Source: Rubrivivax sp. (GTDB taxonomy: Bacteria > Pseudomonadota > Gammaproteobacteria > Burkholderiales > Burkholderiaceae_C). From it: a DNA stretch of 64,000 bases. The notes below the pieces were generated by a model. It ran no database searches. It worked only from the letters and a program-made list of their open reading frames with translations, and had not been told where the DNA came from. The stretch is from contig JADYZZ010000070.1 in NCBI GenBank assembly GCA_020852865.1, positions 51,935 through 115,934 on the forward strand, written 5' to 3'. Both the position numbers and the translations under genes were made by a program. This document shows positions 12,189 through 52,832 of the stretch, piece after piece. Every line of letters begins with the position of its first letter. The stretch's first letter is position 1.

Positions 12189-12791
12189 TCAGCAAGCCGG
12201 CGTGCCCGGCAGCGCGCCGCGCAGGCTGCATACCCGCGCGCGGCCCAGCACACCGAGATCGACGCGCAGCTGCCCGGGCCCCGCCTCGAGCAGCGCTTCG
12301 ACGCTGGCGTCGGCGCGGCCGTCGGCGTCGAAACGCACGCTGCGCGCCGCGATCAGCCGCACGCCGCGGTGGTCGTCGGCCTGCACGCTCGCGAGCCGGC
12401 AGGCGCCCGCCTGGTCGCAGCGGCAGCCGGGTGCGCTGGTCACGGCCCAGCACCAGGATGCGCCGGCGCGGGCCTCGAAGTGCAGCGGCACGCCGCGGCG
12501 CGCCGCCTCGAAGCGCGCTTGGGCCAGGTCGGCGACGAGCGCCTGGGCGGCCGCCTGCAGCCGGTGGCGCTCGAGCGCGCTGCCGAGCGAGGGCAGGGCC
12601 AGCGTGCCGAGCACGGCGAGCACGGCCAGCGTGATGGCGAGCTCGATCAGCGTGAAGCCGCGCCGGCGACACGCGCTGCGCTGCGTGCGGGCAAACCGGC
12701 GCGCCTCGCCGCCCGTGGGGGTACCGGGCGCGCGCTCCACGGCGGCACGCCGTCGCAGCCTGCAAGGCTGCGAATCATGCCCGCGGTTCAT
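12189..12791 (-). CDS. GspH/FimT-type pseudopilin (prepilin-like)
   Basis: RRRGFTLIELAITLAVLAVLGTLALPSLGSALERHRLQAAAQALVADLAQARFEAARRGVPL class III signal peptide and GspH/FimT pattern. Confidence 0.82.
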   Translation of the reverse strand: MNRGHDSQPCRLRRRAAVERAPGTPTGGEARRFARTQRSACRRRGFTLIELAITLAVLAVLGTLALPSLGSALERHRLQAAAQALVADLAQARFEAARRGVPLHFEARAGASWCWAVTSAPGCRCDQAGACRLASVQADDHRGVRLIAARSVRFDADGRADASVEALLEAGPGQLRVDLGVLGRARVCSLRGALPGTPAC

Positions 12792-12805
12792 GTCTTCACC
12801 GGCAC

Positions 12806-51790: not shown

Positions 51791-52087
51791 ATGGACCTGC
51801 ACGCCATCACCCAAGCCCTGCGCACCAAGGTCGGCGACGCGAGCGGCCTCGATGCGACCCTCAAGTTCGACTGCGGCGCCGACGGCTGCGTCTACGTCGA
51901 CGGCCGGAGCGTCCCGAACCGCGTCGACAACGAAGACCGCGATGCCGACTGCACGATCGCGATCGCGCTCGACAACCTGGCGGCCCTGGTCGGCGGCGAG
52001 CTCGATCCGGCCACCGGCTTCATGACGGGCAAGTTCAGGGTCGCGGGCGACATGAGCGTCGCGCTGCGCCTGCAGCGCGTGGTCTGA
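51791..52087 (+). CDS. SCP2 sterol-binding domain protein
   Basis: MDLHAITQALRTKVGDASGLDATLKFDCGADGCVYVDG...DADCTIAIALDNLAALVGGELDPATGFMTGKFRVAGDMSVALRL. Confidence 0.92.
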   Translation: MDLHAITQALRTKVGDASGLDATLKFDCGADGCVYVDGRSVPNRVDNEDRDADCTIAIALDNLAALVGGELDPATGFMTGKFRVAGDMSVALRLQRVV

Positions 52088-52354
52088 GAGCCTGTGAAGA
52101 TATGAATCACGCCCGCGTGGGGCCCCGGAAAGGGCCCAATCTAGGCGCGAAGCGCAGCCGGGGTTGGGCCCCGGCGAGGCTTCGCAACGACGAGTGGGCC
52201 CTTTCCGGGGCCCCACCCGAAGGGCCGGGGTGCCAGAGGGCGCTGCGCGGCGTTCCAGCGCTTGCGCGGGCGTCCAGCCCGCGCTGCGCGCTGCGCCTTG
52301 CCCAGCGCCCTCTGGCGCCCCGGCGCGGGCGCGATTCATATCTTCACAGGCTCT
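52087..52354. repeat. 268-bp nested inverted-repeat element (outer stem plus two long internal hairpins)
   Basis: Outer arms 52087-52117/52324-52354 (first 22 bp perfect: AGAGCCTGTGAAGATATGAATC); hairpin A 52117-52138/52195-52216 (22 bp perfect: GTGGGGCCCCGGAAAGGGCCCA); hairpin B 52225-52245/52303-52323 (20/21). Confidence 0.9.
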
Positions 52355-52370
52355 GAGGCCGGTGGCGGCG

Positions 52371-52832
52371 ATGCTGCAGCGCGCGCCGCGCGCCGGCCGC
52401 CGGGCGGCGCTGCCGAGCGCGCGCGAGGTGCTGGCGTCGCACCGCGACGAGGGCACCGGCGAGCTGTTCGGCATCACCGAGCTGTGCCGCGAGTTCGGCA
52501 TCACGCTGCGCACGATCCGCTTCTACGAGGACAAGGGCCTGCTCGCGCCGCGGCGCGTCAACGGCACGCGCGTGTACACGCGGCGCGACCGCGCGCGCCT
52601 GGCGCTCATCCTGCGCAGCAAGGCGATCGGCGCCAGCCTGGCCGACATCAAGCAGTATCTCGATCTGTACGGCAAGGCCGGCGAAGGCCGGCAGCGCCAG
52701 CTCGCCTGGCTGCTCGGCCGCACCGACGCGGCGATCGCCGAGCTCGAGCAAAAGCGCGCGCACATCGAGGCCACGCTGGCCGAGCTGCGCCTCATCAACG
52801 CCGAGGCGCGCACCCATCTGGAGGAGCGATGA
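52371..52832 (+). CDS. MerR-family transcriptional regulator
   Basis: ELFGITELCREFGITLRTIRFYEDKGLLAPRRVNGTRVYTRRDRARLALILRSKAIGASLADIKQYLDLY. Confidence 0.93.
   Translation: MLQRAPRAGRRAALPSAREVLASHRDEGTGELFGITELCREFGITLRTIRFYEDKGLLAPRRVNGTRVYTRRDRARLALILRSKAIGASLADIKQYLDLYGKAGEGRQRQLAWLLGRTDAAIAELEQKRAHIEATLAELRLINAEARTHLEER

Follow-up and report, generated by a model that had tools for sequence, protein, structure and literature searches.

The window, the 64,000-nucleotide stretch of Rubrivivax sp. DNA analysed here, carries a gene of the SCP2 sterol-transfer family (open reading frame at 51791-52087, + strand; Pfam PF02036, E=6e-14) followed by a gene for a MerR-family regulator (52371-52832, + strand; Pfam PF13411, E=1e-16). 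Between the two lies a near-perfect nested palindrome of 266 bp (52088-52353), recognized by its sequence and folding and also by its copies and their alignment. As RNA, the element has a minimum free energy of -250 kcal/mol, as compared with a mean of -146 for shuffled sequences (z = -18.6), and its DNA fold gave z = -15.9; in both cases, 0 of 200 shuffles were as low. A preliminary description of this DNA had noted a folded palindromic element between SCP2 and merR, which these values bear out. The fold it had drawn over 268 bp is real, but the extra base on each side belongs to the flanking TGA triplets, which happen to pair, and the element proper has 266 bp.

The outer stem is formed by a 5' arm with the terminal inverted repeat (TIR) GAGCCTGTGAAGATATGAATC (52088-52116; alignment helix 1) and by a 3' arm with the right TIR (52325-52353; inverted-repeat match and alignment). 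Its pairs 1-21 are all perfect, the two TIRs of the window copy matching at 21/21 bp. The stem encloses hairpin 1 (52117-52216; fold and alignment helices 2-4), a central mini-hairpin CC-GAA-GG at the centre of the nested palindrome (52217-52223; alignment columns 131-137) and hairpin 2 (52224-52324; fold and alignment helices 6-9). The outer stem and two hairpins had been described as a three-way junction; because of the mini-hairpin, the junction is four-way, that is, a cloverleaf. Open reading frames within the element are fragments or merged frames only, in agreement with the earlier statement that protein coding is not supported there.

A TGA stands on either side of the element, in the target context C-TGA-G. 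The left copy (52085-52087) is the stop codon of SCP2, which the left arm abuts as previously described, and the right copy (52354-52356) is separated by 14 bp from the merR start at 52371. We found the SCP2-merR pair without the element in dozens of Burkholderiales relatives (Rubrivivax, Piscinibacter and Rhodoferax, among others), where the gap from the SCP2 stop to merR is short, as a rule no more than a few tens of bases. One such empty site (L065) reads CGTGGTCTGAGCGCTTCGGCATGCTGCAG, as compared with CGTGGTC-TGA-(266 bp)-TGA-GGCCGGTGGCGGCG-ATGCTGCAG in the window; the insertion has thus moved merR 269 bp further from SCP2. The short spacing in the relatives suggests that the two genes may be translationally coupled. 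Structures after stop codons have been described as lowering re-initiation on the next gene (PMC7518266). By analogy, the insertion, which separates SCP2 from merR by a very stable structure, may lower re-initiation on merR, and an incidental effect of the element on merR translation is possible. In two relatives, a different GC-rich inverted repeat of the CCCCCGAGGGGG type occupies the SCP2-merR gap (L068 2842-3000 and L076 2789-3000), indicating that unrelated repeats also invade it.

Copies, target duplications and size derivatives

The element of the window belongs to a subfamily, family 1, that is dispersed over the host genome. The first 13 bases of its TIR, with at most one mismatch, occur at 115 sites (61+54) in the 4.19-Mb host draft, as compared with 0 sites for the reversed pattern. 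A covariance model of the short form gave 140 strand hits at about 75 places in the host genome that share these ends. Most host copies are 50- to 52-bp palindromes without the internal hairpins; 266-bp copies of the window type were found at other loci of the congeners G016, G021 (with two copies) and G026. No copies were found in the plasmid and viral contig collections searched. The window itself holds a second, degenerate 50-bp family-1 palindrome at 12756-12805 (model hit, E about 5e-4), and a 128-bp composite elsewhere in the host genome (L012 1506-1633) consists of a family-1 end, an unrelated stem-loop and a nested 50-bp palindrome.

The left and right 3-mers flanking family-1 copies were direct repeats of each other in 13 of the 62 rows, a few of which are alternative alignments of one copy, as compared with 5.7 expected, and 0 of 1000 shuffles reached 13; identity as reverse complements was seen in 1 row versus 7.2 expected. 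The target duplication of family 1 is TNA (TCA, TGA, TCG), usually inside CTNAG, and these family-level statistics back the reading of the TGA pair in the window as a direct duplication. Many further family-1 copies agree with a TNA target if the GAGA or CTCT run at their junction is taken to have collapsed by 2 bp.

A sister family (family 2) has the TIR GAGCGTGGGCGGCAGAA and the target CTAG, and is present in at least 10 copies of 267 bp in the host. These have the ends GAGCGTGGGCGGCAGAAATCC, CTAG on both sides and a core homologous to that of the window element. Matches to the sister-family element occurred in 23 of 81 congeneric genomes, and further end types were seen in G070, G027 and G017. 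One such end type, GAG[G/C]CTGTCGGGCTTT, is found at a 267-bp element and beside an IS1182-like fragment (L221 in G070 and L405 in G092), which suggests that another element-partner pair may exist. Nearly all full-length copies measure 266-267 bp, lie in either orientation and adjoin unrelated genes, with identities down to about 70%.

Shorter derivatives come in discrete sizes. In G083, elements with the same ends measure 267 bp when both hairpins are present, 159-177 bp when one of them, the first or the second, has been lost, and 52-83 bp when there is none. A 167-bp one-hairpin form is identical at two separate G083 loci (L408 and L410), each flanked by CTAG, indicating that the derivatives multiply too.

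Probable transposase partner and proposed mechanism

A decayed transposase gene in G088 has its start immediately internal to a family-2 end. Intact relatives are found in the congeners G096, G005, G025 and G023; they are IS1182-type elements that measure 1549-1556 bp, are bounded by CTAG and end in perfect inverted repeats of 16 bp of the family-2 type. By locus, the IS1182-family insertion sequences (ISs) with perfect 16-bp TIRs and CTAG flanks are L398, L401, L402 and L403, and both proteins scanned against the NCBIfam model NF033551 (IS1182), those of L401 (441 aa) and L403 (439 aa), exceeded its cut-off. Among named elements, the relative ISKpn6 (plasmid pCOL-1) has the ends GAGCCTGCGCGGCAGA and GAGTCTGCGCGGCAGA with CTAG flanks. 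Since the intact ISs and ISKpn6 share ends and CTAG with the sister family, ISKpn6-like IS1182 transposases very likely mobilize the latter. Only 17-21 end bases of the element match the partner IS, to which its core is unrelated; the element is therefore not a simple internal deletion of the IS.

The window copy stands apart from this pairing. The TIR expected of an IS1182/ISKpn6-derived element, GAGCNTGNGCGGCAGA, fits family 2 but not the window copy (GAGCCTGTGAAGATA), and the 4-bp CTAG target also fits family 2, whereas the window copy is flanked by TGA/TGA. The window subfamily shares only GAGCCTG of its TIR with the IS1182 partner, and duplicates TNA rather than CTAG. Searches of the host and its congeners yielded no autonomous element with the TIR GAGCCTGTGAAGATATG of the window subfamily and a TNA target, and no ISKpn6-like IS gene was found in the host draft.

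Other candidates for the partner were rejected. The PF01609 match in the host is only an IS4-like gene with unrelated ends, and the end of the IS5-type L295, CAGGCTGTTGAA with CTAA, resembles the TIR loosely and does not match. The IS701 of L312 and the IS1380 of L311 have ends of their own and merely used a CTAG at the element edge. In two different genomes, the CTAG bordering a family-2 element is occupied by an IS701-family IS with the ends TCTTACTGTG (L312 912-2397 in G083; L313 from 707 in G099). The IS1380-family element (L311 787-2404 in G077) has the ends CC[T/C]GGATCTTTCACCA, is flanked by CTAG and lies directly against a 266-bp element, indicating that the CTAG target is common here to IS families whose ends differ.

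Taken together, these comparisons make it highly probable that the element is a protein-less miniature TIR transposable element (MITE) that landed in the TGA stop of SCP2 and duplicated the TGA. Its TIRs would be recognized by a DDE transposase acting in trans, and its body, two hairpins around a small central palindrome, could fold or extrude as a whole into the cloverleaf. Insertion into the SCP2 TGA (C-TGA-G) would have duplicated the triplet, so that the SCP2 stop and the merR start were both kept. The window copy was presumably moved by a related transposase, absent from our finds in the host draft, and the folded DNA form may matter for transposition or persistence. No transposition was observed. 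A non-autonomous palindromic mobile element of the MITE kind was among the readings offered in the preliminary description, and it has held up through the dispersed copies, the element-free relatives, the direct target duplications, the compensatory change between copies described below and the autonomous partner of the sister family.

Covariation, stop codons and alternative explanations

The structure alignment comprised 21 distinct, diverse copies with a consensus of 101 pairs. Pairing holds in 96.2% of pair cells, and 77 of the 101 pairs show two-sided (compensatory) change. Two-sided cells numbered 410, as compared with 115 in shuffles and 47-83 with the partner slid. There were 404 two-sided Watson-Crick changes versus 59 single-step intermediates, the latter being divided equally between G-U (29) and A-C (30). 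RNA acting from one strand should favour G-U intermediates. Since G-U and A-C are equal, the constraint on the arms looks like the palindromy of double-stranded DNA rather than an RNA.

One possible explanation for this pattern is that the arms are kept identical by template switching or hairpin-templated correction, in which case the covariation would reflect a mutational process and not selection for the fold. We regard this as a serious contender, although somewhat short of an even chance. The unusually few intermediates relative to two-sided changes and the symmetric behaviour of the strands speak for it; correction of the arms alone, however, leaves the conservation of internal loop motifs and of total length unexplained. 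It concerns the cause of the covariation, not the identity of the element as a mobile element. As the few intermediates also fit hairpin-templated correction, the covariation is worth less as proof of a selected function. More tentatively, the transposon may be one defined by its DNA shape, whose fixed length and fold are selected, because a hairpin-recognizing IS1182-type transposase or the replication fork acts on the extruded or single-stranded form; we consider this conceivable but rather unlikely. If it were true, one constant shape could be shared by subfamilies (TNA/TGA and CTAG/TAG) that differ in sequence, ends and target.

The position of the window copy at a stop codon is common in both families. 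A single classifier placed 39 of 54 short family-1 copies next to the stop codon of a neighbouring gene, mainly TGA, and 24 of 42 family-2 or similar copies, mainly TAG. At L214 and L222, the copy separates two convergent genes and has a TAG stop at either end. These figures would suit an insertion process targeted to stop codons and coupled to the ends of translation or transcription, beyond any preference for DNA sequence. In 464 kb of host DNA, however, the share of non-coding sites that are already stop codons is 59-68% for CTSAG and about 35% for CTAG. Target preference together with the loss of gene-breaking insertions thus explains the association with stop codons entirely for family 1 and for the most part for family 2; the modest excess of stop codons that remains for family 2 is relative to a background from the host genome only. 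We therefore judge such coupling improbable. With a TNA or CTAG target, the element can restore the stop codon at which it inserts, so that even 15-bp intergenic gaps can be colonized without gene breakage.

The preliminary description had also raised the idea of a large RNA structure coupling SCP2 to merR. The corresponding alternative, in which selection on the RNA maintains a large, structured 3' UTR or a small RNA to terminate, stabilize or uncouple SCP2-merR expression, could draw on the extreme predicted stability, the strong covariation and the location directly after a stop codon, a position that allows stable structures to control re-initiation (PMC7518266). We found no positive support for it. 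The element is missing from the SCP2-merR locus in the relatives examined, its copies lie beside unrelated genes in either orientation, and the lack of a G-U over A-C bias is unexpected for one functional strand. A search of Rfam 15 with the element gave no match at the gathering score, and the absence of a T-run 3' of its stem in the window sequence means that it is not a standard intrinsic terminator. A functional RNA is accordingly a highly improbable explanation. Palindromes of the REP/BIME type spread by a RAYT (Y1/HUH) transposase, the REP-like identity also proposed earlier, are least likely of all, since, despite short high-copy palindromes near gene ends and one Y1_Tnp gene in the host genome, we observed direct 3-bp duplications, 266-bp full-length copies, no GTAG/CGTC foot, and no family-1 or family-2 TIR near ten congener Y1_Tnp genes.

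Comparison with known systems

A MITE is a known kind of element, of which this is a cloverleaf variant: its length is fixed, its arms covary, it comes with more than one end type and target, and one branch has an IS1182 partner. We found no description of this variant in the open-licence literature. The analysis ties a large, unexplained palindrome family of a Rubrivivax-like genus to a named transposase family, the ISKpn6-like IS1182 elements, and the full-length elements, conserved in fold and diverged in sequence, form a natural data set with which to examine whether bacterial transposition can depend on DNA secondary structure.

Like MITEs and other non-autonomous IS derivatives, the element is short and protein-less, has TIRs, target duplications and many dispersed copies, and, for the sister family, a partner IS with the same ends. 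Unlike them, it has a core that does not stem from the partner IS, folds into four helices with extensive covariation, keeps a length of 266-267 bp across diverged species and loses hairpin modules stepwise. The family-2 TIR GAGC[C/G]TG[C/G]GCGGCAGA with CTAG flanks is shared with ISKpn6-like IS1182 ISs and identical to the left end of ISKpn6, whereas the element has no transposase; in the window subfamily, the common part is confined to the initial GAGCCTG, and the target is TNA.

REP/BIME sequences with RAYT (PMC3733652) are likewise high-copy extragenic palindromes near stop codons; the element differs in being longer, in its target duplications and in having no GTAG/CGTC foot. The Betaproteobacterial repeat element BRE (PMC3110155) is also a GC-rich dispersed repeat found in part at ORF ends, but is set apart by its description as a 75-91 bp repeat of the tandem VNTR type. 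Ribosome termination structures (PMC7518266) share a stable structure directly after the stop codon, whereas the element is an insertion missing in relatives and is not conserved as part of the gene pair. Two members of the IS1182 family, IS1272 and TnSha1, are reported to target DNA hairpins, which they replace with no duplication of the target (PMC5678879, PMC4923244). The element resembles them in the transposase family of the sister-family partner and in its relation to hairpin DNA; unlike IS1272, it shows direct target duplications, and the palindrome here is what moves, rather than being the target. By analogy with IS1272/TnSha1, a role for the folded form is plausible.
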